Shown piece by piece: positions 27,538 through 46,001 of a stretch of 64,000 bases of DNA (within the stretch, counting starts at the first letter, position 1; the number at the start of each line of letters is the position of its first letter). Source of the DNA: an uncultured Candidatus Binatia bacterium (lineage in GTDB: Bacteria > Desulfobacterota > Binatia > Bin18); assembly GCA_958296235.1 (NCBI GenBank), contig OY282457.1:4335338-4399337 (forward strand), read 5' to 3'. The notes under the pieces were generated by a model, which was given only the letters and a program-made list of their open reading frames with translations, was not told where the DNA came from and did not search any database. Made by a program: the position numbers and the translations under genes.

Positions 27538-28806
27538 GTGGCCGACGGCAGACTCCATATCGGGTTCGTGCTGCCCAGCCTGGGCGGGGGCGGGGCGGAA
27601 CGCGTCATTCTGAACCTGACGCAGTCTCTCGTTGAGCGCGGACATCGGGCGGACTTGTTGATCCCTCGGTTCGCGGGAGACTACCGGGCCGCAATTCCTC
27701 GTGGAGTGCGATTGTATCGGGGGCGGCTTCCTCATACCGACAGGAGGTTCCTGCGGGAAGTCCAACAGTCGGCGGCAGGAGGCGCAGAGGGCGCAGGAGT
27801 AACGGCGCTTGGCGTGAATCCGGTCATGGTCGCATGGGTCGGGCTGATTCTTGGCCGCAAGTACCCTGGCGTACGCGTCCCGCGCAAGCGTTCTCTTTAT
27901 GCTTCTGTCCACATTCTGAACCGTTACGTTCGCGAGGTGCGTCCTCATGTGTTGGTGTCGGCGCTGCCGGGCCCCAACACCGTCGCGGTCTGCGCTGCCG
28001 AGTTGACGGACCGGGCCGTGCCGGTGGTGGTCACGGTACATAACAACGTCGCCGCGGACTATGCGCCGGAGTGGCTGGCCGCGGCCCGGACACTCTATCC
28101 ACTGGCCGACGCGGTGGTGGCGGTGTCCAAGGGCGTGGCCGAGTCCGTGCGGCGATCATTGGGGATGGACGCCGAGCGCGTTCGCACCATCTACAACCCC
28201 ATTCCCGCCGCCAGCATACGAAGGCTGGCGCAGGGGGAAGTCACGCACCCCTGGTTCGCGGACGGTGAGCCGCCGGTGGTCCTGAGCGTCGGGCGCGAAG
28301 CGCCGCAGAAGGACTTCCCCACCCTGGTGGAGGCGTTCGGGCTGGCGCGGCGCGAGGTGGACGCACGGCTGGTCATCCTCGGCAAGCTCTCGGCGCCCTT
28401 CCGGGCAAGGCTGCGGTCCCTGGCGCGGGGCCATGGCGTGGAAGGGGACCTTGGCTTCGTGGACTTCGACGAAAACCCGTACCGCTACATGCGGCGGGCG
28501 GGGCTGCTCGCCCTCTCCTCGCGCTGGGAGGGTTTGCCGGGAGTGATCCTTGAGGCGCTGGCGTGCGGCACGCCGGTGGTCAGCACCGACGCGCCCTACG
28601 GTCCGCGCGAGATCCTTGGGGGTTGGGGTGACCTGCCGCCGGTGGGCGACGTGCCGGCGCTGGCGCGGGGGCTGGTCGCCACGCTGCGGGGCGCGCGGCC
28701 AACGGCGGCAGCTCTGCGGGCACGCGCCGCCGACTTTTCACCCGAGCAGGCCACCGACGCCTATGTCGCGCTGTTCGAGAAGCTGGCGAGGGGGCGCGCG
28801 GGGTGA
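27538..28806 (+). CDS. GT4-type glycosyltransferase (tandem copy 1)
   Basis: 422 residues, GT-B fold. The N-terminal acceptor domain starts LHIGFVLPSLGGGGAERVIL with the glycine-rich loop. The C-terminal donor domain has VVLSVGREAPQKDFPTLVEA and the EX7E motif in SSRWEGLPGVILEALACGTP. From about residue 185 to 360 it is nearly identical to copy 3, while its N-terminal residues 55-130 are the most divergent of the three. The GTG start at 27538 lies three bases after the flippase remnant's stop. It probably adds one sugar of a surface polysaccharide. Confidence 0.92.
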   Translation: MADGRLHIGFVLPSLGGGGAERVILNLTQSLVERGHRADLLIPRFAGDYRAAIPRGVRLYRGRLPHTDRRFLREVQQSAAGGAEGAGVTALGVNPVMVAWVGLILGRKYPGVRVPRKRSLYASVHILNRYVREVRPHVLVSALPGPNTVAVCAAELTDRAVPVVVTVHNNVAADYAPEWLAAARTLYPLADAVVAVSKGVAESVRRSLGMDAERVRTIYNPIPAASIRRLAQGEVTHPWFADGEPPVVLSVGREAPQKDFPTLVEAFGLARREVDARLVILGKLSAPFRARLRSLARGHGVEGDLGFVDFDENPYRYMRRAGLLALSSRWEGLPGVILEALACGTPVVSTDAPYGPREILGGWGDLPPVGDVPALARGLVATLRGARPTAAALRARAADFSPEQATDAYVALFEKLARGRAG

Positions 28807-30062
28807 GTTCGGACCATCTCCATATCGGCTTCCTGCTGACCAGCCTGCACGGCGGCGGGGCGGAGCGCGCCATGCTCAACCTGGCGGCGGCGCTCATCGA
28901 ACGCGGGCACCGGGCGGACCTGGTGATCCCCCGGTTGGCGGGAGACTACCGGGCCGCGATCCCTGGCGGGATGCGGGTCTGGCGGGCGCGGATTCCCGGC
29001 ACCGACGGGAAGTTCCTGCGGGCGATCCGGCGGGCGGGAGTCGACGTGGAGGCGATGACCGTCAACCCCATCGGGGCCGCGCGGACCTGGCTGGTGCTCG
29101 CGCGCAGGTATCCCGGGATACCGGTGCTACGCGGCAGCGGTCTGCGCTCCATCTATCCCCTCGCCCATTTTCTGTCGCGGTACGTTCGCGAGGTACGCCC
29201 CCATGTGCTGGTGTCGGCGCTGCCGGGCCCCAACACCGTCGCGGTCTGCGCTGCGGAGTTGACGGACCGGGCCGTTCCGGTAGTGGTCACGGTGCGCAAC
29301 GTCCCCGCGGACTACTATGCACCGGAATGGCTGGCCGCATCCCGGACGCTCTATCCACTGGCCGACGCGGTGGTGGCGGTGTCCAGGGGCGTGGCCGAGT
29401 CCGTGCAGCAATCGTTGGCGGTGGACGCCGAGCGCGTTCGCACCATCTACAACCCCATTCCCGCCGACAGCATACGGCGGCTGGCGCAAGCGGAAATCAC
29501 GCATCCCTGGTTCGCGGACGGCGAGCCGCCGGTGGTCCTGAGCGTCGGGCGCGAAGCGCCGGCGAAGGACTACCCCACCCTGGTGGAGGCGTTCGGGCTG
29601 GCGCGCCGCGAGGTGGACTCACGGCTGGTCATCCTCGGGCGGCTCTCGGCCCCATACCAGGAAAGGCTCAAGTCCCTGGCGCGGGGCCATGGCGTGGAAG
29701 GAGACCTCGGCTTCGTGGACTTCGACGAAAACCCGTACCGCTACATGCGGCGCGCGGGACTGCTCGCGCTCTCCTCGCGCTCGGAGGGGCTGCCGGGGGT
29801 GATCCTCGAGGCGCTGGCCTGCGGCACGCCGGTGGTCAGCACCGACACGCCCTACGGTCCACGGGAGATCCTTGGGGGTTGGGGCGACCTGCCGCCGGTG
29901 GGTGACGCGCCGGCGCTGGCGCGGGCGCTGGCCAGGACACTGCGGGGCGAGAGGCCAACGGAGGAGGCACTACGGGCGCGGGCCGCCGACTTTTCCCCCG
30001 AAAAGGCCGCCGACGCCTATGTCGCGCTGTGCGAGAAGCTGACGAGGGGGGGCGTGCGGTGA
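28803..30062 (+). CDS. GT4-type glycosyltransferase (tandem copy 2)
   Basis: 419 residues, with the same architecture as copies 1 and 3: FLLTSLHGGGAERAMLNLAA near the start and SRSEGLPGVILEALACGTPV as the EX7E motif. The GTG start overlaps the previous stop as GTGA, giving translational coupling. The N-terminal 90 residues are closest to copy 3, while the segment LVSALPGPNTVAVCAAELTD matches copy 1. It therefore looks like part of a mosaic set. The donor sugar is unknown. Confidence 0.92.
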   Translation: MSSDHLHIGFLLTSLHGGGAERAMLNLAAALIERGHRADLVIPRLAGDYRAAIPGGMRVWRARIPGTDGKFLRAIRRAGVDVEAMTVNPIGAARTWLVLARRYPGIPVLRGSGLRSIYPLAHFLSRYVREVRPHVLVSALPGPNTVAVCAAELTDRAVPVVVTVRNVPADYYAPEWLAASRTLYPLADAVVAVSRGVAESVQQSLAVDAERVRTIYNPIPADSIRRLAQAEITHPWFADGEPPVVLSVGREAPAKDYPTLVEAFGLARREVDSRLVILGRLSAPYQERLKSLARGHGVEGDLGFVDFDENPYRYMRRAGLLALSSRSEGLPGVILEALACGTPVVSTDTPYGPREILGGWGDLPPVGDAPALARALARTLRGERPTEEALRARAADFSPEKAADAYVALCEKLTRGGVR

Positions 30063-31300
30063 GTTCGGCCAAGCTTCATGTCGGCTTCCTGCTGACCGGC
30101 CTGAACGGGGGCGGGGCGGAGCGCAACATTCTCCGCCTGGCGGCGGCGCTCATCGCGCGCGGGCACCGGGCGGATCTGGTGATCCCCAAGTTCGCGGGAG
30201 ACTACCGGGCCGCGATCCCTGACGGGATGCGTGTCTGGCGAGCGCGGATTCCCGGCACCGACAGGAAGTTCCTGCGGGCGGTGCAGCGGGCGGGAGTCGA
30301 GGTGGAAGCGATGACCGTCAATCCCTTCGGGGTCGTGCGGAGTTGGCTGGTGCTTGGCCGGAAGGGTCTCCACCTGCCGGCTCGAAGGCGTCACCGTGTC
30401 TATGCGTATGCAGCCATGATTGCGACGTACGTTCGCGAAGTACGCCCGCATGTGCTGGTGTCGGCGCTGCCGGGTGCCGACGCCGCCGCGGTCTGCGCCG
30501 CGGAGTTGATGGACCGGGCCGTTCCGGTGGTGACCACGGTGTGGAACAACGTCACCGCGGACTATACGCCGGAATGGCTGGAAGCATCCAGGACACTCTA
30601 TCCGCTGGCCGACGCGGTGGTGGCGGTGTCCAAGGGCGTGGCCGAATCCGTGCGGCGATCATTGGGGATGGACGCCGAGCGCGTTCGCACCATCTACAAC
30701 CCCATTCCTGCCGCCAGCATACGAAGGCTGGCGCAGGGGGAAGTCACGCACCCCTGGTTCGCGGACGGCGAGCCGCCGGTGGTCCTGAGCGTTGGGCGCG
30801 AAGCGCCGCAGAAGGACCACCCCACCCTGGTGGAGGCGTTCGGGCTGGCGCGGCGCGAGGTGGACGCACGGCTGGTCATCCTCGGCAAGCTCTCGGCGCC
30901 CTTCCGGGCAAGGCTGCGGTCCCTGGCGCGGGGCCATGGCGTGGAAGGGGACCTTGGCTTCGTGGACTTCGACGAAAACCCGTACCGCTACATGCGGCGG
31001 GCGGGGCTGCTCGCCCTCTCCTCGCGTTGGGAGGGTTTGCCGACGGTGATTCTCGAGGCGCTGGCGTGCGGCACGCCGGTGGTCAGCACCGACGCGCCCT
31101 ACGGTCCGCGCGAGATCCTTGGGGGTTGGGGTGACCTGCCGCCGGTGGGCGACGCGCTGGCGCTGGCGCGGGCGCTGGCCAGGACACTGCGGGGCGAGAG
31201 ACCAACGGCGGCAGCTCTGCGGGCACGCGCCGCCGACTTTTCCGTCGAGCAGGCCACCGACGCCTATGTCGCGCTGTTCGAAGAACTGGTACGGCGCTAG
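30059..31300 (+). CDS. GT4-type glycosyltransferase (tandem copy 3)
   Basis: 413 residues from the GTG at 30059, again overlapping the previous stop as GTGA. The N-terminus (LHVGFLLTGLNGGGAERNIL) resembles copy 2. Residues from about 180 onward resemble copy 1 with only a couple of changes (KDH for KDF, LPT for LPG). The final part (ALARALARTLRGERPT) resembles copy 2 again. The acceptor region around GRKGLHLPARRRHRVYAYAA is unique. EX7E is SSRWEGLPTVILEALACGTP. Confidence 0.92.
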   Translation: MSSAKLHVGFLLTGLNGGGAERNILRLAAALIARGHRADLVIPKFAGDYRAAIPDGMRVWRARIPGTDRKFLRAVQRAGVEVEAMTVNPFGVVRSWLVLGRKGLHLPARRRHRVYAYAAMIATYVREVRPHVLVSALPGADAAAVCAAELMDRAVPVVTTVWNNVTADYTPEWLEASRTLYPLADAVVAVSKGVAESVRRSLGMDAERVRTIYNPIPAASIRRLAQGEVTHPWFADGEPPVVLSVGREAPQKDHPTLVEAFGLARREVDARLVILGKLSAPFRARLRSLARGHGVEGDLGFVDFDENPYRYMRRAGLLALSSRWEGLPTVILEALACGTPVVSTDAPYGPREILGGWGDLPPVGDALALARALARTLRGERPTAAALRARAADFSVEQATDAYVALFEELVRR

Positions 31301-31313
31301 AGCTGTCGAAGCC

Positions 31314-32645
31314 ATGACACCGGAAGAGTCGAATAGGCCACTCGGTCCGCGCACGACCGGCGGACAGGATGCAGCCATCGTGTTCGCGACCGGTGTCTGC
31401 ACGGTCATCTTCGGCCTCGCGATCCAGAGTCTCCTGGCCTATACGCTGTTGCCGGAAGGACGCGGCAGCTTTGCCCTGTGCGTCGTGTTCGCAAGTGTTC
31501 TCGGCGTGCTCTTCACGCCCGGGGCGCGAGAAGGCGCGCAGTATTTCGTCGTGACCAGACAGGCGACCGTCTCGGAAGGTGTCGGTGCCGCCCTGGCGAT
31601 CTGCCTCGCCGGTGGGGCCTTGGCGCTCACATTGGCGGCCCCGTTTGTCCACAGCGATATCGCCTTCTTTCACAAGGCAGAGACGCGCTCGTTCTACCTG
31701 GCGCTTGCCCTGGTACCTGTCATGGCGTTCTCGGGCGCCACGGAGTATCAACTCGCCGGGCTCCGGCGCTTCGGACATCTCGCGGTTTTCACCCTGGTGC
31801 ATGTCGCCGTGAACATCCTCGTTCTGCTGGTCCTCGTCTGGGTCGGGCGGCTCGGGGTGGACGGTGCCGTCGCGGCGGTCGTCGGCGCGCATGGTTGCAC
31901 GGTGGTCTTGTGTGCGTGGTACCTGCGGGGCCATTATGGGCTGGTTCTGACCAATCCGCTCCGCGCTGTCTCTGCGCGAATCGTCGGCTACGGTCTGCGA
32001 TTCCATCCCGCGGGCATAGGCAGCGCACTGGAAATGAGCGCGGGCGTTCTCATTCTCGGGCTGTTCGCGAGCCAGGCCGAAATCGGCTTGTTCGCAACGG
32101 CGAGCGCGCTCATGTTCCGACTGCGAATAATCTCCGACGCGGTCGGCAATGCGCTGCTGCCCCGTATCGCCGGCAGCGGCCGCCCGGAATTGACGACACT
32201 CTGCCTGCGTGTCGTGTCGTGTGGCACCGTGGCCACGATTCTTGTCATACTGCTGATCCGTACGCCGCTGGTTCGGATCCTCTTCTCCGAGGCCTTCCTG
32301 CCGGCGGTCCCGCTACTGTGGATCATCGCCCCGGGAGTGCTCGCCTATGCCTGCGCCGGCATACTCGAAACCTATTTCAAGGGTATCGACCGCCCGGGCA
32401 TCTGTTCCTGGGCTGTCTCCCTGGGACTGGCTGCGAATCTGATTGCGATTCTCGTGCTCTATCCGGTAGTCGGCGTCTCAGCCGCAGCCTGGGGGTTGGC
32501 CCTGGGAATGATTTGCCGACTCGTCCTTCTCGCGACGGCGTTTGCAAGAGCGACTCGAATGCGCTGGCTCTCAATCTGGCTGCCGCGACCCGGCGACGCG
32601 GTCTCTTTCTGGCGGGCATTCCGCGCCGCGCTCGGCAGCGGGTAA
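31314..32645 (+). CDS. wzx: Wzx-type polysaccharide flippase
   Basis: 443 residues with 12 or more hydrophobic segments, in the MOP/MATE-like polysaccharide transporter family. It would flip lipid-linked repeat units across the inner membrane. The start GPRTTGGQDAAIVFATGVCT and the C-terminal RILFSEAFLPAVPLLWIIAP correspond to the two halves kept in both remnants in this island, so this is the intact parent type. It follows the third glycosyltransferase by 13 bases and is convergent with asnB. Confidence 0.9.
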   Translation: MTPEESNRPLGPRTTGGQDAAIVFATGVCTVIFGLAIQSLLAYTLLPEGRGSFALCVVFASVLGVLFTPGAREGAQYFVVTRQATVSEGVGAALAICLAGGALALTLAAPFVHSDIAFFHKAETRSFYLALALVPVMAFSGATEYQLAGLRRFGHLAVFTLVHVAVNILVLLVLVWVGRLGVDGAVAAVVGAHGCTVVLCAWYLRGHYGLVLTNPLRAVSARIVGYGLRFHPAGIGSALEMSAGVLILGLFASQAEIGLFATASALMFRLRIISDAVGNALLPRIAGSGRPELTTLCLRVVSCGTVATILVILLIRTPLVRILFSEAFLPAVPLLWIIAPGVLAYACAGILETYFKGIDRPGICSWAVSLGLAANLIAILVLYPVVGVSAAAWGLALGMICRLVLLATAFARATRMRWLSIWLPRPGDAVSFWRAFRAALGSG

Positions 32646-32742
32646 CCTTGCGATACACGCGAGACGCTTGCTCTGTAAGGCGGAGTCCGATCAGGAACAA
32701 ATGCTGGTGCCTGAACGCTTACGCGCAAAGACGTTCGGGCTC

Positions 32743-34749
32743 TCAGGGCCCGGTACGCCTGGTCCAGAGTTCCCGTCGACTGCGGTCCAGCCATGCCTGA
32801 AACATCAGAATGTTCCAGAGGTGCTGTTCACATTGCGCATGCGCATTCAGAAATTCATACCATTTTCGACGGACGGGCCGCGGGTCGAAAAAACCCTCCG
32901 TCCGCAGCCGTCTGGCGTCCAATAATGCCTCCGCCCAATCCCTGAGTGGACCACGCAGCCACGAGGCGAGCGGTATGGAGAATCCCGCCTTCGGCCGTTC
33001 GACGAGCCGCATCGGTACGTACTTGTAGAGCACCTGCCGCAAAACCCACTTGCTCTGAGCGTTACGGATCCTGAAAGACAGCGGCAACCGCCAGACAAAC
33101 TCCATGACGTGATGGTCAAGGAATGGCGCACGCGTCTCGAGACTCACGCCCATCGCCGCCCTATCCACTTTAACGAGAATATCATCTGGAAGGTAACTCA
33201 GACTGTCGACCGCCATCAATCGTTCTGCAAATTCAGACGCAGCGGGCCAGCTTGCGGATTTGTTCAGGACGGTTTCAGGTTCGGACGCTCCGCGCACGAC
33301 CGCGGACGGATTCCGCCAGTGAGAGAGGGAGAGCCAATGGAGTTCCTCCTGCGTCCGACAATTGGCTAACAGCGCCAGCGTGTGCGCTTTGGCTTGTAGC
33401 CGGTGTCGCCCGCGGTCCATTGGCAGCCGGCCAAGGACACGGGCCGGTAAACTGTCCGCTCCATGCGCCTGAGTGGCTATGATCGCGCCTGCGACGAAGC
33501 GGCGCAACGGTGCCGGCACACTGGACAGCCAGCGCCATCGCCGGGGCGTCGAGACGTAGTGCCCATAACCGCCGAACATCTCGTCGCCGCCGTCTCCAGA
33601 CAGGGCGACGGTGACGTGCCGGCGGGCCATCCCGGCAACCAGGAAGGTCGGGATCTGCGAGGAATCGGCAAAAGGCTCGTCGAAGAGGTCAGGCAAGCGA
33701 GGAATGACGTCGAGCGCATCCCGCGCTGATACGTATAGTTCGGTGTGTTCGGTCCCCAGGTGGCCGGCCACGGCCTTGGCGTGTTCCGCTTCGTTGTATT
33801 CGGATTCGTCGAATCCGATGGCGAAAGTTCGTACCGGCCACCTGGATTGCGCCTGCATCAATGCAACGACGGTCGACGAGTCGATCCCGCCGGAGAGGAA
33901 GGCACCGAGCGGGACGTCCGCGGCCATCTGCCGGCGCACTGCCCGGAGCAACAGGTCGTGCAGGGCGTCCACCGCGTCTTCGGGGGTGCCCTCGAACGGT
34001 TGCGCCCGTCCTGCTGCTACCACGTCCCGCAACGACCAGTAACGCCGCGGTTCCGGCAGTTCGCCGACACGCTGCTCCCGTGAAGCGCCGGCAGCCACCC
34101 TGAGGTACATGCCCGCCGGCAGCTTTCGCACTCCCTTGTAGATCGACCAGGGGGATGCAATGTAGCCGTGGCGCAGGAGCAGGGTGAGCGCGTCCCTGTC
34201 GATGTCTCCCTCGAATGCAGGATGCGCCGCGAGCGCCTTCAGCTCGGACCCGAACAGGAACACGCCGTTCTGCCAGCCGTAATAGAGCGGTTTTTCGCCC
34301 ATCCGGTCGCGGGCCAGACAGAGTGTTCTGTCCTCCCGGTCCCAGAACGCGAAGGCGAACATGCCGGTGGCCGCCTGCAACGCCTCCTCCAACCCCCAAT
34401 ACTCGATGGCGGCCAGCAGCGTTTCCGTATCGGAATGTCCCCTCCAGGACAAAGCGTCCGGACGCCGGGCCTCGATCTGCCGCCTGAGGTCAAGGTGGTT
34501 GTATATCTCGCCATTGAAGACGATGACGCTTCGCCCAGAGGCGGACTGCATCGGCTGGCGGCCGGCTGGTGACGGATCGATGACGGCCAGACGCCGGTAG
34601 GCCAGTGCGATTTCGGCCTCACGGTCGATCCAGACCCCGGCATCGTCGGGACCACGATGCGCAACGGCGTCCACCATCCCGCGTGCGACCGGCGACGCTT
34701 CTTCTGGAGTGAAACGCTCGCCTCCAAGAAAACCGGCTATGCCGCACAT
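32743..34749 (-). CDS. asnB: AsnB-type glutamine-dependent amidotransferase
   Basis: 668 residues. The class II glutaminase domain begins MCGIAGFLGGERF, so Cys2 becomes the N-terminal nucleophile after Met removal. The synthetase domain has the ATP pyrophosphatase loop PLGAFLSGGIDSSTVVALM and SGDGGDEMFGGYGHYV. Homologues make asparagine, or in polysaccharide islands amidate uronic acids or other sugar acids; the location favours the latter (inference). It is transcribed against its neighbours. An upstream in-frame start would add 42 residues that lack family similarity. Confidence 0.92.
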   Translation of the reverse strand: MCGIAGFLGGERFTPEEASPVARGMVDAVAHRGPDDAGVWIDREAEIALAYRRLAVIDPSPAGRQPMQSASGRSVIVFNGEIYNHLDLRRQIEARRPDALSWRGHSDTETLLAAIEYWGLEEALQAATGMFAFAFWDREDRTLCLARDRMGEKPLYYGWQNGVFLFGSELKALAAHPAFEGDIDRDALTLLLRHGYIASPWSIYKGVRKLPAGMYLRVAAGASREQRVGELPEPRRYWSLRDVVAAGRAQPFEGTPEDAVDALHDLLLRAVRRQMAADVPLGAFLSGGIDSSTVVALMQAQSRWPVRTFAIGFDESEYNEAEHAKAVAGHLGTEHTELYVSARDALDVIPRLPDLFDEPFADSSQIPTFLVAGMARRHVTVALSGDGGDEMFGGYGHYVSTPRRWRWLSSVPAPLRRFVAGAIIATQAHGADSLPARVLGRLPMDRGRHRLQAKAHTLALLANCRTQEELHWLSLSHWRNPSAVVRGASEPETVLNKSASWPAASEFAERLMAVDSLSYLPDDILVKVDRAAMGVSLETRAPFLDHHVMEFVWRLPLSFRIRNAQSKWVLRQVLYKYVPMRLVERPKAGFSIPLASWLRGPLRDWAEALLDARRLRTEGFFDPRPVRRKWYEFLNAHAQCEQHLWNILMFQAWLDRSRRELWTRRTGP

Positions 34750-34953
34750 GTCATGCGCTTGATGGATTTCGGCGCTGGCCGTGGCCCGTCCGTCCGCACT
34801 TCTGTCCCATATACCTTCAAATAAAGGCGGCTTGAACCTTCCATATCTGGTAGAGTGATTGGTAGCATAACCCATTAAAAAGACAGGGGTCCAAGCCGTG
34901 GCTCATCATAACACAGTCTTCGCGCAATTTCGGCCACCAGATGGCCATCACCA

Positions 34954-35799
34954 CTGGCTTGCCGCATGTTGCTAGTCATGATTGAAAAGAGATAAATGAA
35001 TTCTGGTCCCATTGGCAAGCGCCACAGGGCTCGAAGCCCAGCATCCGGTTCGCCAATCCGCGTCATGCTCCAATCGAAGCCGGCAATGACAGATGCGCTG
35101 GAAGTCCCGGCCACAACCGGCGGGCAGGACGTGTCCGTCATGTTAGTGACCCTGGCTGGCATGGCGGGGCTGACCCTGCTGATACAGGGCCTGCTCACAG
35201 CCGCGAGTGGGCTCATGCTGGGGTTCCTGCTGATCTCCAGCGCGGTGGGTACCGCGCTGTTCCCCTGGGTCGCGGGTGGGGAGCGCGTCGAGATGGTCGC
35301 GCGCTGCCTGCGCTTGGTCTGCGTGGGGACCGCGCTTCCCCTGCTCGTCCTGCTCGCACTCAGCGCCACCCTGGTGCGTCTCCTGCTTTCGGACGCCTTC
35401 CCGCCTGTGGTGCCGCTCTTGTGGATTATCGCGCCGGGGCTGCTCGCCTACGCCGTCTCGGGAATCTTCATGACCCACTTCAAGGGTGCCCACCGCCCGG
35501 ATATCTGCTCGTGGGCGGTCTTCCTGGGGCTGTGCGCCAATCTCGGCGTGCTGCTCCTGCTCTACCCGAGCCTCGGCGTCGCGGCGGCGGCGTGGGGCCT
35601 GACCATCGGCATGGTGTGCGGGTGTTCGTTCCTCTCCATCGTTTTCCACAGAACGACACGAACGGGTCTGACTGCGGTCTGGCGGCCGCGGCACAGCGAC
35701 CTGGACTTCCTGTGGGCCGCGGGCCGGGTCGGGCTGTCCGGTAGGGTCAGGGGGAGGGCCGCCGCCCATACTCAACTCGTGAAAGAGGCATCCCGTTGA
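34954..35799 (+). pseudogene. Internally deleted Wzx-type flippase remnant, copy 2
   Basis: From ATG 35086 the frame reads ATTGGQDVSVMLVTLAGMAG and jumps at the same point as copy 1 to the C-terminal half. Unlike copy 1 it keeps the true C-terminus (WGLTIGMVCGCSFLSIVFH onwards). It is about 237 residues and lacks roughly the first half of the membrane segments. The last 170 bases shared with copy 1 appear identical. Its stop overlaps the next glycosyltransferase as TTGA, so it may still be translated and coupled. Confidence 0.8.
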
Positions 35800-36920
35800 G
35801 CGGGAAAGAGCGCCGAGCGCCCCGCATCCTGCTCATCGCTCCGATACAGAAGGCCGGAGCGTCCGTTAGCAACGTGGCCGGGGGCAACAAGGTGATGGCC
35901 GACGAACAGGTGCGGGAATTGGGGGCACGCGGCTTCGAGGTGGACGTCATCGACACGTCGGGGGGCGTGACCAATCTGCCCGCCTGGAAAATCTGGGCCA
36001 ATCGTCTGGCAAGGTTCCTGCGAGTAGCCTGGGGAGTCGCAAGGAAGCTATGGCGCTCCGACGTCGTGTTCCTCATCATCGCGTCCTATTCGGCGCTGAG
36101 CCTGGCATCGTTCCTGTGGGCCGTCTGCAAGATCGCGCGCAGGCCCCTGGTGTTGCGTATCACCGGGGGCGACATGATGGTGGAGTACTTGGAATATGGC
36201 GCGTTCGCGCGTTGGCTGGCCGAGCGGACCTATATGCGCTCTTCACTGGTGTACGTGGAGACGCAGTATCTGCACCAGAGCTTCGACAACCGGGGCAACT
36301 TCAGGTGGTTCCCGAATACGAGAAGCATGGAGGCACCCGCCCGGACCGGGCGCGACAGGGTGGAAAGGCTGATTTTCGTTGCTCGTTTAGCGATGTTCAA
36401 GGGGCTGGCCGAAGCCCTCGAGGCGTGCCGCCACCTGCCGGAGAATTGTCATCTCAACGTCTTCGGTCCCGGCATGTCCGACACGGATTTCTCCCTGTTC
36501 GAGGACCATCCCAGGGCGACCTACGGTGGCGTCCTGGACCCGGCGGAAATACCACGGGCCCTCAGTGAACACGACCTGCTGGTGTATCCCAGCTACTACC
36601 GGAACGAGGGCTACCCCGGCGCCATCCTCGAAGCCTTCCAGTGCGGCCTGCCCGTCGTCGCCACCAGGAGGGGCGGCATTGCGGAGCTGGTCGAGCACGA
36701 AGAGAGCGGGCTGCTGGTGGAACCCCGTTCCGCTGCAGAGGTCGAGTCCGCGATCAAGCGGTTGCTGGACGAGCCCGAACTGTACCGGCAACTCTGTGAG
36801 GGAGCAAGACGGCGAGGGGACCAGTTTCGGAGCGCGGACTGGTACGACCGCGTGGCCGCCGAGTTGCGCAGCCTGTGCCGGAAACAGAGCCCACGCGGCC
36901 GGCGGGCCCCACGGCCATGA
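35796..36920 (+). CDS. GT4-type glycosyltransferase (unrelated to the tandem set)
   Basis: 374 residues. The N-terminus APRILLIAPIQKAGASVSNV fits a GT4 start, followed by a hydrophobic stretch (SDVVFLIIASYSALSLASF). The donor domain has VERLIFVARLAMFKGLAEAL and the EX7E motif in NEGYPGAILEAFQCGLPVVA. It starts at a TTG overlapping the flippase remnant's stop and is followed 15 bases later by the wzy-like gene, so the genes are probably one transcript. Confidence 0.9.
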   Translation: MSGKERRAPRILLIAPIQKAGASVSNVAGGNKVMADEQVRELGARGFEVDVIDTSGGVTNLPAWKIWANRLARFLRVAWGVARKLWRSDVVFLIIASYSALSLASFLWAVCKIARRPLVLRITGGDMMVEYLEYGAFARWLAERTYMRSSLVYVETQYLHQSFDNRGNFRWFPNTRSMEAPARTGRDRVERLIFVARLAMFKGLAEALEACRHLPENCHLNVFGPGMSDTDFSLFEDHPRATYGGVLDPAEIPRALSEHDLLVYPSYYRNEGYPGAILEAFQCGLPVVATRRGGIAELVEHEESGLLVEPRSAAEVESAIKRLLDEPELYRQLCEGARRRGDQFRSADWYDRVAAELRSLCRKQSPRGRRAPRP

Positions 36921-36935
36921 CGCAAGGGTAAACGT

Positions 36936-38678
36936 ATGTTGCCGCTGCTTCCGTTCCTCTGGAGGCGACTCGAGTCCGTAGCGGTTGCCTGCAGCGCCCG
37001 CCGAACCGAGCCGCTCCAGGCCACGCTGATCGCAGTCGCGTTCTGGACATTGGCGATCATCGCTCTGACCAACCTGAGGTACGTGCATCTTGGGGGGATA
37101 CCACAGGTCGAGGTAGTCATTGCACGGGCGACCATGGCCTGCTGTGTCCTCTTGTTGGGCCTGGTTGGAGCCCGGTGCGTGATTGCCTGGCGAAAGTCTA
37201 CTTCTCTCCTTTCTCTCTGGGGGGTACTTGGCGGAACACCCGGCATGTTGTTGTTCGCTGCGGTGGCGTCCTATCTGGCGATCGGCGCTGCCGTGCTGGG
37301 CGTCGAGGCAATCTCGCAGCCCGAAACGGCTGGGAGATTGAAGTATCGAGTCCTCCATTTCAGCGTGCTCGTGGCCGCCGCGGTCGGTGGCCGCGCGGTG
37401 CTGGAACGAACCGGAGCCAAGACGTTGTTGCAGTGGACGCTCGTGATTCTGGTGGCAAGCTGCGCCGTCGTTCTGGCCTCGCCGGTCCTGCGTGATATTG
37501 GCATGCTGCCGGAGTACCGGCATCTCTATCGCATGACCGGTACTTTTTCCGATCCCAACGACGCGGGCTTCATCGCTTGCATGACGGTAGTACTGGCATT
37601 GGCATTTCAATCCAACGAACGGCAACGCGCCCTTGGGTATCTGGCCCTGGTCCTGGGATGCGCCGCGGGACTCGCATCGTTCTCCGCTACAGCGATTCTT
37701 GTTCTGGGCGGGATGCTCATTCTGTTCCTGCTGCTGAATGTCCGCCGCCTGAGACAAGACCTCTTGCATACCGGCCTGACTGTTCTGTGCATGGCCGGCA
37801 TCCTGGTTTGGCTCATTCCGGGGGCACCGGTAGTGAATACCCACCAAGCCTGGATTGATGATCCGTACGAAGCGAAGCGTGTCGGAGACACTATCACCGT
37901 TTACCTGGTTGACAACAAGCCCCACCGGGCTGACGACTACCCGGCAAATTCCTGGCGATGGCAGCGGGCCGACGCCCGGCCCGGCGATGTCAATACGCCC
38001 GACGACGCTACTTGGACCAACATCGAAGGCGCGCTTTCATCCAACTACACCCCGGCGGACGAAGACGGGGGCAAGTTCTTGCGCGCCTGGATGTCCTACG
38101 AGAAGAACGGCATGACGCACCGGGTTCAAACGGAGGCCATAGGCCCGATTATGGCGGCACCCGCAGCGACCGCGACGGATGCCAACGCGCTGGCCCATCC
38201 ACTGAAGGCACCAAGTGAGACCGTGGAGGCTTTCAGTGGCAAAGTCGATTCCACCAGCGGCAGTGGGAGAGCTCTATCGAGACGAATGCTCTTGTGGGAG
38301 ATGGGCTTCAATAAGGTCCTGGAATCGCCCATCATAGGTCACGGCTTGTATCAGCTCCACTGTATGGAGGGCGCCCCTATCGGAAACCAGGGGACGCCGA
38401 CCGGGGTCCACAATGTGTACCTGATGCTGGTTGGCGAAGCGGGCATTATTCCATTTGCATTATACTTGCTATCTCTGTTCTTCTTGATGCGGTTGCTTTG
38501 GACCGTGCCGAAGTCCCTGGGCAGGGATTTGGTTGTTGGATGGGTTATTGTGATGGCCCTGTACGGCCTGTCGTTTCACCATTTACTCACCACGGGGGCC
38601 TACAATTTCGTTATCGGCCTGGCCTGTGCCACCGCGGCGTTCCTCGTTCAGAGGCAAAGAGACCCAACCGCGGCGTGA
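36936..38678 (+). CDS. Wzy/WaaL-type O-antigen polymerase/ligase with an Ig-like insertion
   Basis: 580 residues. About ten hydrophobic segments and a Wzy_C loop (GVHNVYLMLVGEAGIIPFAL, with the conserved His in GxHN) place it with O-antigen ligases and polymerases. Between about residues 312 and 404 lies a hydrophilic module with the bacterial Ig-like pattern: VGDTITVYLVD, then SWRWQRAD, then ATWTNIEGALSSNYTPADED, then GKFLRAWMSYEKNG. Typical family members lack this module. It sits in the expected periplasmic loop. The enzyme would join or polymerise lipid-linked glycans. Confidence 0.88.
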   Translation: MLPLLPFLWRRLESVAVACSARRTEPLQATLIAVAFWTLAIIALTNLRYVHLGGIPQVEVVIARATMACCVLLLGLVGARCVIAWRKSTSLLSLWGVLGGTPGMLLFAAVASYLAIGAAVLGVEAISQPETAGRLKYRVLHFSVLVAAAVGGRAVLERTGAKTLLQWTLVILVASCAVVLASPVLRDIGMLPEYRHLYRMTGTFSDPNDAGFIACMTVVLALAFQSNERQRALGYLALVLGCAAGLASFSATAILVLGGMLILFLLLNVRRLRQDLLHTGLTVLCMAGILVWLIPGAPVVNTHQAWIDDPYEAKRVGDTITVYLVDNKPHRADDYPANSWRWQRADARPGDVNTPDDATWTNIEGALSSNYTPADEDGGKFLRAWMSYEKNGMTHRVQTEAIGPIMAAPAATATDANALAHPLKAPSETVEAFSGKVDSTSGSGRALSRRMLLWEMGFNKVLESPIIGHGLYQLHCMEGAPIGNQGTPTGVHNVYLMLVGEAGIIPFALYLLSLFFLMRLLWTVPKSLGRDLVVGWVIVMALYGLSFHHLLTTGAYNFVIGLACATAAFLVQRQRDPTAA

Positions 38679-38723
38679 CGGCGGGCGGGGGCAAAAATCA
38701 AGTTATGTGGAGATCGCTTGGAA

Positions 38724-39800
38724 ATGAATAATAGTTTCCGAAGTCTCTTGCGGCTATGGCGCCGGGTAGGAATGGGCAGCCCTCGAAAGTATTACAGTCG
38801 GGGCGGGCGGATAGCCAGGCGTCTTGGGCTGAAAAGGACTCCTTTCCTGCCCACCAGCATCGACGTCGAGCCCATCGATACGTGCAACTTTGCCTGCGAC
38901 CATTGTCAGGTGACGCATTGGACGCGGAAGACGACCCGGTTGACCACCGAGCGGTTCATCTCAATTCTCCGCCAGTTGCCGATGCTTCGTCAGATCAAGC
39001 TCCAGGGAATGGGAGAACCGCTGCTGAACCGACATCTTATTGAGATGCTGGAAGAGGGAGAGATGGGGGGACGTAGCGTCTCCATCGTCACCAATGGTTC
39101 GGTTTATACCGAGAATATCGCCCAGCGGCTTAGCTCTCTGCGGGGGACGACGATTACCATCAGCATGGACGGCGCGACCGCGGAGACGTTCGAGGCAATC
39201 CGAGTCAACGGCAACTTTCAGAAAGTGGTCGATAACGTCGCAGACATGGTCCGCCGCCGCGGCCGCAGCGTCTGGCCCGGTATCGAACTGCGGTCGGTCG
39301 TTACGCTCCGAAACGCCCACGAACTTCCAGATCTCGTGCGGTTGGCGAAACGCCTCGGTGTGGACAAGCTGACGGCAACAACTTTGCTCACCGACTGGGG
39401 AAAAGAGGAGATGGAGGGGTCAATTGCGGCGATAGACGTTTCCCGGGGAGATCCCCGGGTGGACCAGTCCATCCGGGAGTCGAGAGAAGTCGCCGCCGAG
39501 GTCGAGATGCCGCTCAGCGTCGAGCATGGTCAAAGGTATTCCAAGGCGAACCGCTGCCCCTGGCCTTGGACCGCCTCCTACATCGCGGCGAACGGCGACG
39601 TCGTCCCCTGCTGTCAAATAGCCGATTCCAGCGTCGTAAAAATGGGCAACGTGTTCGACGAGCCATTCGCCGATATTTGGAACAACGACAAATACCGGGA
39701 ACTGCGCCGGCGCATTGCCGGCGACGACATTCCGCACTATTGCCGCGGTTGCTACGGAATGAAGCCGGTAGCCGCCTCCACGGACCGGCGGTCGCAATGA
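38724..39800 (+). CDS. Radical SAM protein with SPASM-type C-terminus
   Basis: 358 residues. The radical SAM cluster motif is in IDTCNFACDHCQVTHW (CxxxCxxC), and KLQGMGEPLLNRHLIEMLEE is the SAM-binding GGEP-like region (here GMGEP). The C-terminus has Cys-rich NRCPWPWTASYIAANGDVVPCCQ and PHYCRGCYG, a SPASM/twitch cluster. Such enzymes modify peptides or sugars, and its position at the end of a glycan island suggests a sugar or linker modification. ATG 38724 is used; a TTG at 38718 has slightly better Shine-Dalgarno spacing. Confidence 0.9.
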   Translation: MNNSFRSLLRLWRRVGMGSPRKYYSRGGRIARRLGLKRTPFLPTSIDVEPIDTCNFACDHCQVTHWTRKTTRLTTERFISILRQLPMLRQIKLQGMGEPLLNRHLIEMLEEGEMGGRSVSIVTNGSVYTENIAQRLSSLRGTTITISMDGATAETFEAIRVNGNFQKVVDNVADMVRRRGRSVWPGIELRSVVTLRNAHELPDLVRLAKRLGVDKLTATTLLTDWGKEEMEGSIAAIDVSRGDPRVDQSIRESREVAAEVEMPLSVEHGQRYSKANRCPWPWTASYIAANGDVVPCCQIADSSVVKMGNVFDEPFADIWNNDKYRELRRRIAGDDIPHYCRGCYGMKPVAASTDRRSQ

Positions 39801-40767: not shown

Positions 40768-41591
40768 GCGGCGTCTAGTGCGGAAACAGCGGACAAGCGC
40801 AGGAGTGGAGAGAAGGCCAACAGCGGGCGGAGTCCCTCCCACACCCCGAGCAACTGGAGTGCCATGACCACTATTGTCCCAGCCAACACAATCCGAATCC
40901 AGCCTTCACCCTTACTGACCCCCCAGTGCGCCCCGAACCACGCGCCGATGCTGGTCGTTAGTGAAAGGAGCAGTCCCACACGCCAATCAACTTTCCCGTT
41001 CAGCGCAAAGACGCAGCAGGCAATACCAGTCAGGCCCATGACAATAACGACTTTCACGCCATTTGCCAGGGTGAGATTCAAGCCGCCCACAGTGCTCAGC
41101 GTCACCAGTATCAAAATACCTGCCCCAATCTGAAGTAAGCCACCGTAGAGGCCGATGCCGAAAAAGACGCCTTGGAGCAGGCGTCGCCCCCGACCTGTCC
41201 CGCTGACAGCCAGCAGTTTGCTGCTGAGGACCGGCTCAAACATTATCGGGATGAGCAGAACCAGCATGGTGATGGCCAATACACTCTGGAAGACTGCATC
41301 GTCCAGACGGACCGACACCAGCGCGCCACACACCGAACCCAGCATGGCCGGGAGCATGAGCGTAAGGGCTAAGCCTGAGTCAGTCTGGTTCAGTTTTGTA
41401 TACGCAGCCAGCGCAGTCAGACTTTGCAGGACAACGGCCAGACGATTCGTTCCGTTGGCAACTCCCGGCGGCAGCCCGACCAGAATGAGGACTGGCACGG
41501 TCAGCATGGCCCCTCCGCCGGAAACCGCGTTGAGAAAACCCGCGGCCAGACCGCTGAGGGTAATGAGGAGCATATCGGTGAGTGACAGCAT
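40764..41591 (-). CDS. TSUP (TauE/SafE) family permease
   Basis: 275 residues with about eight membrane helices. The first repeat contains SGLAAGFLNAVSGGGAMLTV, the family glycine-rich signature, and the second GLYGGLLQIGAGILILVTL. Members move sulfite, sulfonates or other small anions. ATG 41591 gives the family N-terminus; a longer frame would add 41 residues of translated repeat DNA. Upstream, two copies of GGGCAGCCACAGGGGG occur at 41600-41655. It precedes the CRISPR locus and is transcribed away from it. Confidence 0.87.
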   Translation of the reverse strand: MLSLTDMLLITLSGLAAGFLNAVSGGGAMLTVPVLILVGLPPGVANGTNRLAVVLQSLTALAAYTKLNQTDSGLALTLMLPAMLGSVCGALVSVRLDDAVFQSVLAITMLVLLIPIMFEPVLSSKLLAVSGTGRGRRLLQGVFFGIGLYGGLLQIGAGILILVTLSTVGGLNLTLANGVKVVIVMGLTGIACCVFALNGKVDWRVGLLLSLTTSIGAWFGAHWGVSKGEGWIRIVLAGTIVVMALQLLGVWEGLRPLLAFSPLLRLSAVSALDAA

Positions 41592-41700
41592 AATAGAAAG
41601 GGCAGCCACAGGGGGGCAGCCGCAGGATAAAAAGGGCAGCCACAGGGGGCTGCCCCTACCATTGCGGCGCCTGGATTGTGTGGCGATTGTTGCGTGTCTG

Positions 41701-41839: not shown

Positions 41840-41901
41840 GTGGAAGCGTAGCATCGTATACGCTAGCCTGCAAGAAATATTTGAAAGAGAGGAGGGCAAG
41901 C

Positions 41902-44900
41902 ATGGCGTGGCGTCTGGGGATTGATCTGGGAACAAACTCTTTAGGCTGGTGGGCGTTCAACGTTGAAAAAGAAGGCCATCAGTGGCGGGTCAGCGACTCG
42001 CTCAACGGGGGCGTGTACATCTTCCCGGATGGGCGGGAGCCGGCAAAAAGTGGGCGTGTGGGTAACAGCAACGCGGTAGAACGCCGCAGGGCGCGGTCAA
42101 TGCGCCGCAACCGGGACCGACGCAAAACACGCCTTCGTGCCTTCATGCGCGAGCTTGTTGAGTTGGGGCTGATGCCCAAATCGCGAGACGAACGTGACAA
42201 GCTGTTCCAGCCACGAGCGAAATCCAACGCTCCTGACCGCTCCAATCCCTATTGGCTGCGCGCCGAGGCAGTGGAACGGCTCCTTGCACCCTACGAACTT
42301 GGGCGGGCGTTGTTTCATCTCGGACTACGGCGAGGCTTTAAGTCCAACCGGCTTGAACAGGCGGATGACGATGGCGGTAAACTCAAGAAACACAAACTCA
42401 AGAAACGCATAGACGAACTCCACAAGACCCTGAACGGCAGAACGCTCGGTCAGGTCCAATGGGCGCAATTCCAGGCGGAGAGAGAACGGCAAAAGTCGGG
42501 TGAAAAGCCTGCTGGCATCCGGTTCAGGGGCGAGAGCGAGTTCTACCCGGACCGAGCCATGTACGCGGCGGAGTTCGACGAAATCCGCAAGAAGCAGGAG
42601 GCCCACCACCGTCCAGAGCCCGCTGATTGGGACCGTTTACGGGATCGGTATGTTCTTTTTCAATGGCCTTTGAAACCTGTGGAAAGAGGTCGCTGCGAAT
42701 TCTTTCCAGAAGAGGCTCGACATTGGCGCGATACTCCTATCGGCCACGATTTCCGTATCTATCAGGAAGTCAATATGCTGCGTTGGGTCGATGCCGACTA
42801 CCAGGAGCATCTCTTGAGTGACGACCAAAGGTCAGCCGTATTGCATCTCTTGCTCACCAGAAAATCTGAAGTCAAATTCAACTCACTACGTAAACAGAAG
42901 CGCCGAGACCGTACCCCGCTGTTCCCCGGCTGTATACGGTTCAATCTGGAAAGCGAGAAGCGCAAAGGACTCAAGAACCACGCTATCGGTGCAACGCTCG
43001 CAAAGAATCCGAATCTTTCCCACCTGTGGCAACGCCGCTGCTCAGACGAAGGCGACGCCGGTCTGCTCGATAACGTTTTCGAGGCGCTTCACGAAGAAGC
43101 CGAACCGGAAAGTCTCGCAACACGGCTCGCGGCAGATTTTGAATTTGATAGTGCAGTTATTGAGGCGTTTTCTACACTCCACCCTTCCCGGGCAACCGCA
43201 AATGTTTCCCGCCGATTCATGGAAGCCATCGTACCGATCATGCGCGATCAGAAACTCTTGTACTGGGAAGCGGTCCGTGAGGTTAAAGACGGGAACGGCT
43301 CTCCTCTGCGTCACAGTCAACAGCCTGAAGGTAGACACCATGACACTCTTCCTTATTATGGGGAAATACTGCATGGCTCGACACTCGGAGCAGACCCCAC
43401 AGCCGACCCGCAGACTGCACCTGAACAACACTTTGGCAAGATCAACAATCCGACGGTTCATGTCGCGCTCAACAGCCTTCGGCGAGTCGTAAATACCTTG
43501 ATTGAACGGTACGGTGAACGACCAGTTGAAATCCATGTGGAGCTGTCGCGAGCCCTGAAACGGACTCGGAAAGAGCGCGACGAAGACACTAAACAGCAAG
43601 CTCACAACCAGGAGGAAAATGACCGTATTCGAAAGGAACTCTCGAAACTCGGAGTCGCACAATCAGCGCGTAACATCAAGAAGTTTAAGCTGTGGGAGGA
43701 ACTCGGTAAGAACACGCTGGCTCGTTGCTGTCCCTACTCTGGGAAGCCGATTTCTTGTGCCCAGCTTTTCAACGACAATGGAGAGGCGGAAATTGAACAT
43801 ATCCTCCCATTCAAGCGCACGCTCGATGATTCTATAGCCAACCTCACCGTCGCAATGCGCTGGGCCAACCGGCGCAAGGGCAATCAGACACCCTACGAGG
43901 CGTTTGCTTCAAACGCTCACGCCGCTTACGGCATCGAGTGGGACACCGTGCGCAGGCTCGCTGACGGCTTACCCGACAACAAAAAATGGCGGTTCGGACC
44001 GGACGCAATGGCCCGGTTTGAGGGTGAGAACGATTTCATTGCTCGGCAGTTGACGGACAACGCCTATATCGCGCGCGCAGCTATGCGTTACCTTCGCTGC
44101 CTCAAGAATGTAGAACAGATTGTTCCCAACCGTGGCGGCCTGACCTCCCTATTGCGTAGGAAATGGGGCTTCAAGAAGGACCGTGGAGATCACCGTCACC
44201 ACGCCGTTGACGCCGCCGTCATTGGGCTGGCCGACCGGGCGATGCTTAATAGGGTCTCCAGACAGACCGCCCGAGGCGCGGATGACCGGGTGCACATCAT
44301 CGTGCCCGAACTCCCGGGACCGATTGAGCAAGCGATTCGCGCCCGTGTTCCTGAAATTGTCGTGGCATTCAAGCCAGACCACGGCTGGCAGGGAGCGATG
44401 TTCAAAGACTCCGCATATGGTTTCATTGCGCCGGAACGACGCGACCCGGATATGCCGGAACACAATCTCGTGGTTCGCAAGGCGTTCACGGATCTTACCC
44501 TCAAAGAATGTGGATTCATCAAAGATAAAGATAAGCCGCCTCGCTATGTTGGTGGTTGCATCCGCGCTGAGCGGCTTCGCAACTCCATAGGTGTATACCT
44601 CACACAGGCAGCAGAAAATGGGGAAGATTTGACAAAGCCCGCCATATTGAAAAAGGTCCTGGCACGTTTCGGAGCAGAGTACGGGGTCGGCAAGGTGCGG
44701 ATTCTGGTTACTGACCAAACCGTTGTGCCCATACCCTCGACTCCCTACAAGGGCTATAAGCCTGATTCCTACGTCTGTTGTGATATCTGGCGTTGTCCAA
44801 AGGGGGAGAAGGGTGGGTGGCAGAAAGGGAAATACGAGTGGCGCGGTGTGTATTGGTCCTATGCGGATACGCCGAACGGTGTACCTGCACCGGGAGCGCG

Positions 44901-45150
44901 TAAGCCACACCCCGCCGCAAAGCTGGTCGCTCGTCTTTATAAGAGCGACATGATCGCCTACGAGAAAGACGGGCAAACGCAGATCATGCGCGTTGCCGGG
45001 TTCAGCACGACAAATAATAAGTTGGACGTGGTTCCGCATTCCGCTGCCGACCCGAAACAGAATTTTGTGCTCATCGACAAGCTTGGCGCTGGAGGCCTGC
45101 GGAAACTCTGGGTGTTTCCAGACGGTCGGATAAAGGGCCTCAAAAGATGA
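41902..45150 (+). CDS. cas9: Compact Cas9 endonuclease (type II-C-like)
   Basis: 1082 residues. The order is RuvC-I (WRLGIDLGTNSLGWW, Asp8), arginine-rich bridge helix (ERRRARSMRRNRDRRKTR, near residues 60-78), a REC lobe, RuvC-II (RPVEIHVELSRALK, Glu547), HNH (EAEIEHILPFKRTLDDS, His633, with ANRRKGN), RuvC-III (DHRHHAVDAAVIG, His767 and Asp770) and a C-terminal PAM-interacting region. All catalytic residues are present, so it should cut both DNA strands. ATG 41902 has GGAGG six bases upstream. The size is near the small II-C enzymes. No cas1, cas2, csn2 or cas4 lies nearby. The PAM is not predictable. Confidence 0.97.
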   Translation: MAWRLGIDLGTNSLGWWAFNVEKEGHQWRVSDSLNGGVYIFPDGREPAKSGRVGNSNAVERRRARSMRRNRDRRKTRLRAFMRELVELGLMPKSRDERDKLFQPRAKSNAPDRSNPYWLRAEAVERLLAPYELGRALFHLGLRRGFKSNRLEQADDDGGKLKKHKLKKRIDELHKTLNGRTLGQVQWAQFQAERERQKSGEKPAGIRFRGESEFYPDRAMYAAEFDEIRKKQEAHHRPEPADWDRLRDRYVLFQWPLKPVERGRCEFFPEEARHWRDTPIGHDFRIYQEVNMLRWVDADYQEHLLSDDQRSAVLHLLLTRKSEVKFNSLRKQKRRDRTPLFPGCIRFNLESEKRKGLKNHAIGATLAKNPNLSHLWQRRCSDEGDAGLLDNVFEALHEEAEPESLATRLAADFEFDSAVIEAFSTLHPSRATANVSRRFMEAIVPIMRDQKLLYWEAVREVKDGNGSPLRHSQQPEGRHHDTLPYYGEILHGSTLGADPTADPQTAPEQHFGKINNPTVHVALNSLRRVVNTLIERYGERPVEIHVELSRALKRTRKERDEDTKQQAHNQEENDRIRKELSKLGVAQSARNIKKFKLWEELGKNTLARCCPYSGKPISCAQLFNDNGEAEIEHILPFKRTLDDSIANLTVAMRWANRRKGNQTPYEAFASNAHAAYGIEWDTVRRLADGLPDNKKWRFGPDAMARFEGENDFIARQLTDNAYIARAAMRYLRCLKNVEQIVPNRGGLTSLLRRKWGFKKDRGDHRHHAVDAAVIGLADRAMLNRVSRQTARGADDRVHIIVPELPGPIEQAIRARVPEIVVAFKPDHGWQGAMFKDSAYGFIAPERRDPDMPEHNLVVRKAFTDLTLKECGFIKDKDKPPRYVGGCIRAERLRNSIGVYLTQAAENGEDLTKPAILKKVLARFGAEYGVGKVRILVTDQTVVPIPSTPYKGYKPDSYVCCDIWRCPKGEKGGWQKGKYEWRGVYWSYADTPNGVPAPGARKPHPAAKLVARLYKSDMIAYEKDGQTQIMRVAGFSTTNNKLDVVPHSAADPKQNFVLIDKLGAGGLRKLWVFPDGRIKGLKR

Positions 45151-45176
45151 TTGGCGGTCTCGTTGAAGTCGCTGAA

Positions 45177-45200
45177 AATGGACGCTACCTATCCGTCCAT
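45177..45200 (-). terminator. Hairpin at the cas9-proximal end of the array
   Basis: Between the cas9 stop and the first repeat, ATGGACG (45178-45184) pairs with CGTCCAT (45194-45200) around a nine-base loop. Read on the minus strand the stem is followed directly by TTTT; on the plus strand by CGAG. This fits an intrinsic terminator for an array transcribed from right to left. Confidence 0.6.
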
Positions 45201-45202
45201 CG

Positions 45203-45963: not shown

Positions 45964-46001
45964 GTCACATATCGGTGACTGACATCACAGGACTGACACG
46001 T

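Follow-up and report, generated by a model that had tools for sequence, protein, structure and literature searches.

An Ig-like domain in the catalytic loop of a Wzy_C-family ligase-like protein: a candidate docking module within a glycan cassette shared between phyla

Introduction

Why would a putative glycan-transferring membrane enzyme carry, in the loop that leads to its catalytic residues, a domain of the kind found in bacterial adhesins? The question is raised by one open reading frame in a 64,000-nucleotide stretch of DNA from an uncultured Candidatus Binatia bacterium, the whole of which is called here the window. The original prediction, made from the letters alone, had recognized a bacterial Ig-like pattern at residues about 312-404 of a Wzy/WaaL-type protein, ahead of its catalytic GxHN region, and knew of no described case. 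The features needed to follow the argument are:

36936..38678, + strand: open reading frame of 580 amino acids, a Wzy_C-family lipid-linked-glycan ligase/polymerase/O-OTase-like protein with an Ig insert (Pfam Wzy_C)
37530..37532, + strand: R199, probable counterpart of WaaL R215, invariant, placed by motif mapping
37848..38168, + strand: Ig-like domain, residues 305-411, from the AF2 model, fold matches in the PDB and a profile match to adhesin repeats
38169..38270, + strand: variable linker between the Ig-like domain and the catalytic half, residues 412-445, delimited by dN/dS
38283..38285, + strand: R450, probable counterpart of WaaL R288, invariant, placed by motif mapping
38409..38411, + strand: H492 of GVHN, probable counterpart of WaaL H338, invariant, placed by motif mapping

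The Ig-like domain and its fold

The motifs on which the Ig-like pattern had been based are present at residues ~312-404, which correspond to window positions 37869-38147. An AF2 model of the segment, built on 18 aligned domains taken unaltered from the window and related loci, predicts an Ig beta sandwich (mean pLDDT 77.5, pTM 0.74). When this model was compared with the PDB by VIA-align, the Ig domain of SCAB1 came first (4dix_A; Z 10.3, rmsd 2.6 over 91 residues, 24% identity), followed by PDE12 (Z 9.0), CD22 (Z 8.6), RAGE (Z 8.1) and many Ig/Fn3 chains, the rows beneath the first few being possibly common-fold matches; the best Foldseek matches in the PDB were PDE12 (E 9.0e-5) and the SCAB1 Ig-PH (E 2.2e-4). 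All 18 domains are invariant at columns that include W42, W44, D58, W62, Y73 and D79, as well as G81, L84, G94, T101 and P106 (segment numbering).

The profile searches gave a divided answer. Taken alone, the segment has a convincing match in none of Pfam, NCBIfam and the PDB sequences: the nearest Pfam model, SCAB-Ig, matches 4 of 9 members with a best E of 0.0023, below cut-off, and no Big_* family appears among its Pfam matches up to E 10. On the other side, a profile of the domain matches Ig-like repeats of adhesins absent from its training set (E 7.3e-12, 3.4e-11 and 9e-13), which come from two large proteins, one of which also has cadherin and Big_9 domains; the adhesin-like character that had been read from the letters is thereby upheld. 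A shuffled control of 1,100 sequences returned a single match at E <= 10 (E 0.0012), and chance resemblance to Ig was ruled out by the fold match, the profile match and this control together. Predicted structure and profile thus confirm the segment as an Ig-like domain, which by profile would form a single homologous family with the adhesin repeats.

A Wzy_C enzyme interrupted in its catalytic loop

The assignment of the host protein to the Wzy/WaaL type also proved correct. The 580-residue product matches Wzy_C (PF04932) at 45 bits (cut-off 31.7; E 1.2e-11), and the match, at residues 441-511, covers the C-terminal half of the model (positions 75-149). A second ligase of the same genome, which lacks the insert (G000:C1:3991536-3992774), has Wzy_C unbroken at residues 278-431 (model 1-149). 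When the two proteins are aligned, 154 loop residues of the window ligase face 28 of the paralogue, and the extra stretch consists of residues ~305-411 plus the variable linker. The Ig-like domain is therefore placed, as had been proposed, in the loop ahead of the catalytic GxHN, here GVHN, after the last N-terminal helix and before the catalytic R450/H492. Twelve hydropathy segments, some of them overlapping, were found in the window ligase, where the family expects about 12 helices and one large periplasmic loop; the AF2 model of the whole ligase is poor (pLDDT 44). Hydropathy and loop charges suggest that the loop with the Ig-like domain probably faces the periplasm.

R199, R450 and H492 are unchanged in 10 of 10 Ig-type rows and in the insert-less paralogue, their equivalence to WaaL residues being drawn by motif and not by structure, with no solved homologue aligned; the WaaL numbering (R215, R288, H338) and the conservation of these residues in PglL follow PMC3643930. 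From the family and these residues, we infer that the window ligase is catalytic. A more precise assignment was sought in subfamily models: PglL_A (PF15864) was not among the Pfam matches of the ligase at E <= 10, the NCBIfam models PEP_O_lig_1 and TfpM scored far under their cut-offs (23.8 against 188.1 bits and 23 against 600 bits, respectively), and a whole-ligase profile found chance matches only among PDB sequences. Given these low ligase and O-OTase subfamily scores and the absence of PglL_A, donor and acceptor are not assignable from models.

One scaffold, several loop modules

The search for the same fusion in other genomes, which had been suggested as a check, was successful. A scan for close relatives in 84,980 species genomes yielded 72 candidate stretches, of which 19 were confirmed, at 17 loci. 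The Ig insert is present in 10 of them (L007-L016, where L013 and L015 are near duplicates), and the other seven (L017-L023) carry leucine-rich repeats (LRR) in the same loop of the same scaffold, in frames that span 807 to 2,049 amino acids. LRR and Wzy_C were found jointly by Pfam in all four LRR-type ligases tested, the Wzy_C of L019 being under the cut-off (28.1 against 31.7 bits). Record titles of the relatives name Nitrospirales, Gammaproteobacteria, Pseudomonadales, Latescibacteria, Entotheonella, Dehalococcoidia and Vicinamibacterales. Ligase relatives occur in 14 of 14 genomes (the window's own and 13 others), homologues of the window ligase are intact in nine other genomes, and both kinds of ligase coexist in four (G058, G059, G061 and G062), where LRR motifs were confirmed in as much of the second ligase as was fetched.

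Furthermore, the loop of one Dehalococcoidia ligase (L056:12093-14597) holds three tandem Ig-like domains, and the domain is likewise carried by two more ligase scaffolds, both diverged (L052/L058/L056:12093 and L056:3-2375), so that it is inserted at the same loop in at least three diverged scaffolds. The third-scaffold ligase, L056:3-2375, combines one Ig-like domain with a long acidic repeat linker in that loop. This series (one Ig, three Igs, LRR) suggests that the loop modules are swappable recognition parts.

Of the sequence alignments, that of ten Ig-type ligase rows (A1) omits L015, as a near duplicate of L013, and the second copy of L011, and another (A2) omits L008. Selection on the parts of the ligase was compared by dN/dS. 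That of the Ig segment ranges from 0.21 to 0.92 in seven comparisons, with 0.92 in one pair; that of the membrane core ranges from 0.32 to 0.81, and that of the linker from 0.78 to 1.75 in the 6 of 7 comparisons that gave a value. By these estimates, constraint on the Ig-like domain is comparable to that on the membrane core and clearer than that on the linker, and weak in places.

Beyond the ligases, an 18-row profile of the domain gave 68 matches in 13 of the 14 genomes. Among 30 of these that were fetched, 16 are ligases, 13 are polytopic GT-C-like proteins with the Ig-like domain at their C-terminal side (one, L129, with only three hydrophobic segments before it) and one lacks membrane segments. 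The label "GT-C-like" is ours: of three proteins compared with NCBIfam, two gave weak matches (E 1e-4 to 1e-3) to a family of putative glycosyltransferases, and the one examined against Pfam has no match at 0.01. In the window genome, a protein of this kind is located at G000:C1:2143705-2143998. In another locus, L009:1551-3968 is a GT-C-like Ig protein apparently broken inside the Ig-like domain, and L009:5505-7796, a further one, has an N-terminal stretch that resembles the ligase N-terminus, a likeness hinting at recombination at gene starts.

Rarity was assessed with a nine-row profile at E <= 1e-6. The window's own phylum gave one matching genome in 297, its own; the phylum of G063 gave 2 in 301 and that of G060 2 in 64, in both cases the ligase genome itself and an adhesin; and the phylum of G059 gave 1 in 398, G059. 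These counts are lower bounds, since in three of the searches first-look filters limited many genomes to 12-16 scored candidates. By this profile, the Ig domain of the ligase is rare.

A mosaic gene in a shared cassette

The ligase gene belongs to a glycan cassette, whose other members, together with a tandem GT4 group and a segment of the ligase gene itself, are:

27538..31300, + strand: three tandem GT4 glycosyltransferases (Pfam)
31478..32800, + strand: membrane protein, flippase-like by eye only, with no Pfam match at 0.001
32743..34875, - strand: asparagine-synthase-like gene, named by eye
35796..36920, + strand: GT4 glycosyltransferase ending 15 bases upstream of the ligase (Pfam Glycos_transf_1, E 1.8e-25)
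36996..37385, + strand: ligase segment, about codons 21-150, swapped with an LRR-type ligase (DNA identity in 45-nt bins; dS)
38718..39800, + strand: radical SAM/SPASM protein downstream of the ligase (Pfam)

Copies of the adjacent GT4 gene, 73-87% identical, were found in L007-L011 and L013-L016, and copies of the radical SAM gene (75-90% identical) in L009, L010, L011, L013, L015 and L016, with a version split in two in L008. The tandem GT4 genes recur in L010, L017-L019 and L021-L023, and elsewhere these adjoin LRR-type ligases; the membrane protein recurs in L007, L010, L011, L018 and L019 (75-81% identical), and the asparagine-synthase-like (AsnB-like) gene in L007 (91%) and L011 (88%). 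Other loci have the GT4, radical SAM, AsnB-like and membrane-protein genes in an altered order and orientation. At the DNA level, identity of the cassette is mostly 86-92% to L007-L011 and mostly 86-90% to L016.

Other elements lie among or near these genes. A 267-residue frame at 34996-35799, with partial matches only to the membrane-protein genes of other loci and without Pfam match, is possibly a truncated flippase. About 2 kb from the cassette, 41881-45966 encodes Cas9 (TIGR01865, 512 bits), directly followed by a repeat array (45196-45966; 12 copies listed, with a spacing of 66 bp), and two 28-bp direct repeats, 34 bp apart, occupy 41588-41649, within the start region of a TauE gene frame.

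The ligase gene itself is, by its pattern of identities, a mosaic of LRR-type and Ig-type ligases. Its first ~15 codons and everything beyond codon ~150 track the Ig-type genes of L008 and L010, codons ~31-150 track LRR-type genes, and the breakpoints lie near codons 16-30 and 150. Inside the exchanged segment, 45-nt bins are 67-98% identical to LRR-type genes and 47-68% to the Ig-type L008/L010; after it, identity to L008/L010 is 78-98%. Likewise, dS to L008-L010 is 1.4-1.7 inside the segment against 0.20-0.22 in the next one, and ligase dS beyond it is mostly 0.1-0.3. The same exchanged segment is also found in L007 and in the first copy of L011. The presence of an LRR-ligase remnant elsewhere in the window was ruled out, the sole match being the ligase itself.

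How far the cassette has travelled can be judged against RpoB, which was chosen as a marker since a 16S search missed 8 of the 14 genomes, the window's own included. Between the window genome and the 13 others, RpoB identity is 51.8-59.7%, taking one locus per genome, with the four Dehalococcoidia values resting on 881-1160 columns. The ligases of five genomes of other labels are 74-81% identical to the window protein (G058 81%, G059 77%, G060 74%, G061 77%, G062 76%). Because these values exceed those of RpoB, the comparison of sequences shows that ligase and cassette have spread horizontally between phyla. A lower group follows (G066 69%, G063 62%, G064 58%, G065 53%), and in G065 the ligase is no more conserved than RpoB. 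In turn, no match to the ligase was found in the 15 genomes of the family to which the window belongs, which rules out restriction to its own lineage, and three other genomes of the same class gave weak C-terminal matches only. As for carriers, no plasmid match was obtained, and none of 253 candidate viral stretches was confirmed, in searches that may miss distant relatives. Fragments of Ig-type ligase genes lie at G061:C1:4190356-4190670 and G070:C1:2648420-2648617, one of them 90% identical to residues 476-580; these would be signs of turnover of cassette genes.

Proposed function and alternative explanations

We propose that the Wzy_C enzyme would move an undecaprenyl-linked glycan onto an acceptor located at the inner membrane's outer face, and that the Ig module of its catalytic periplasmic loop would be one of an interchangeable set (Ig, three Igs, LRR arrays), docking either the acceptor, which could be a surface glycoprotein or a further glycan, or a partner enzyme close to R450/H492. 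A glycan- or protein-binding module that could position the acceptor had already been put forward in the original prediction; the exchangeable modules, the recombinant gene, its movement between phyla and the GT-C-like carriers of the domain go beyond what that prediction covered. The conserved catalytic residues and the probably periplasmic loop place the Ig-like domain probably near the acceptor site. Exchange of the module would re-target the enzyme. The cassette itself moves in rearranged form from phylum to phylum, the exchange taking place probably among symbionts that live together in a host. As to the acceptor, LpxC is encoded in 9 of the 14 genomes and is missing from the four Dehalococcoidia and the Latescibacteria genome; among the ten with Ig-ligases it is present in the window's own and four others and absent in five, so that in these five the acceptor is probably other than lipid A. 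On balance, and by a narrow measure, we favour this reading of a modular acceptor- or partner-docking Ig on a lipid-linked-glycan transferase, in a cassette that moves between phyla.

The domain could also be an assembly handle, which, instead of holding the acceptor, pairs with the Ig-like domains of GT-C-like enzymes and other ligases of one pathway within a periplasmic glycan-assembly complex. The near confinement of this Ig family to polytopic glycan enzymes, to which 29 of the 30 fetched loci belong, the GT-C-like Ig proteins that flank the ligase in L007, L008, L009 and L012, and the invariant W, Y, D and G positions shared by both kinds of domain are in keeping with such pairing. Nevertheless, the GT-C-like protein of the window genome lies ~2.2 Mb from the ligase and LRR-type ligases have no Ig, and we regard this explanation as unlikely, if the best of the alternatives.

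It is more doubtful that the Ig and LRR modules face an animal host, directly in organisms devoid of LpxC or after shedding, and modulate phagocytosis, with the ligase as a mere anchor. Sponge symbionts are enriched in LRR and similar eukaryotic-like domains, according to PMC9531527, LRR inserts push some of our proteins over 2,000 residues, and the four Dehalococcoidia genomes are without LpxC; yet the enzyme part is conserved in its catalytic residues and membrane core, the loop would be periplasmic in LpxC-bearing genomes and the ligase genes are located in glycan cassettes.

Slightly less probable still is a neutral or merely structural passenger of a selfish or often-exchanged cassette. 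The linker's dN/dS, the single Ig comparison at 0.92, the ligase fragments nearby in G061 and G070 and the broken GT-C-like gene in L009 would fit a passenger, against which stand the 10 of 10 Ig-type rows where the domain is intact and its core residues are invariant, and the insertion of the domain at the same loop of at least three diverged scaffolds. Finally, that mis-assembly or wrong genome labels have created a false appearance of sharing across phyla is hardly credible: all 17 loci do come from one accession range plus one other assembly, but RpoB differs from the window's own by 40-48%, so that the lineages are distinct from it, gene copies differ by ~7-14% in DNA and so are not one molecule, and the genomes are long, mostly single chromosomes.

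Returning to the docking module, its interest is that acceptor choice is the hard part of WaaL, PglL and Wzy biology, and a natural series of scaffolds (no insert, one Ig, three Igs, LRRs, recombinant) makes the choice of acceptor by loop modules testable. The exchange of surface-glycan machinery among phyla would also be a plausible route to a common coat for co-resident symbionts. The taxa of the Ig-ligase genomes resemble those in the abstract of PMC12586988, and they would suggest a sponge community as the source. It is tentatively conceivable, though distinctly less probable than docking itself, that unrelated phyla within one host swap the cassette and that Ig or LRR loop modules set the target of the ligase, giving shared, re-assorting glycan coats. 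If true, the surface glycans of unrelated symbionts would be identical or would re-assort rapidly, through a shared, domain-swapping coat system.

Comparison with known systems

In the open-licence full-text literature, no description was found of an Ig-like domain in the periplasmic loop of an O-antigen ligase or oligosaccharyltransferase, in agreement with the original prediction; PMC12419801, which combines O-antigen ligase and Ig-like terms, is unrelated to the Ig-ligase in the portion available, and the available excerpts on sponge symbionts describe LRR and eukaryotic-like proteins, with none in ligases found.

The O-antigen ligase WaaL (CAZy GT121) resembles the window ligase in its polytopic nature, in Wzy_C above cut-off and in two arginines and one histidine; unlike WaaL, the latter has its Wzy_C loop interrupted by an Ig-like domain of ~107 residues plus linker, and lipid A-core is not assumable as its acceptor, half of the Ig-ligase genomes being without LpxC. 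The O-oligosaccharyltransferases PglL, PilO and TfpM, of the same superfamily and with the same catalytic His/Arg, could explain a function without lipid A; the window ligase differs from PglL and TfpM in giving no PglL_A match and in reaching so little of the TfpM score, and WaaL and PglL are said in PMC3643930 not to be distinguishable by simple sequence comparison. Wzy polymerases share enzyme class and reaction type, and the window gene lies in a glycosyltransferase cassette; no polymerase-specific model matched it, the sequence models used leaving ligase and polymerase unseparated.

As for the inserted modules, SCAB1, a plant actin-binding protein, offers the closest solved fold (Z 10.3), with only the fold shared and no functional link. 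Among sponge symbionts, eukaryotic-like proteins with LRR, ankyrin, fn3 or cadherin domains recall the LRR of the sister ligases, and the taxa here are those usual in sponge communities; here, unlike there, the module lies inside a membrane glycan enzyme and the host is presumed. The Ig repeats of bacterial adhesins are, by profile, of a homologous domain family, but they sit in large multi-domain proteins that bear cadherin-like domains, whereas the Ig-like domain of the window sits in the catalytic loop of a putative enzyme.
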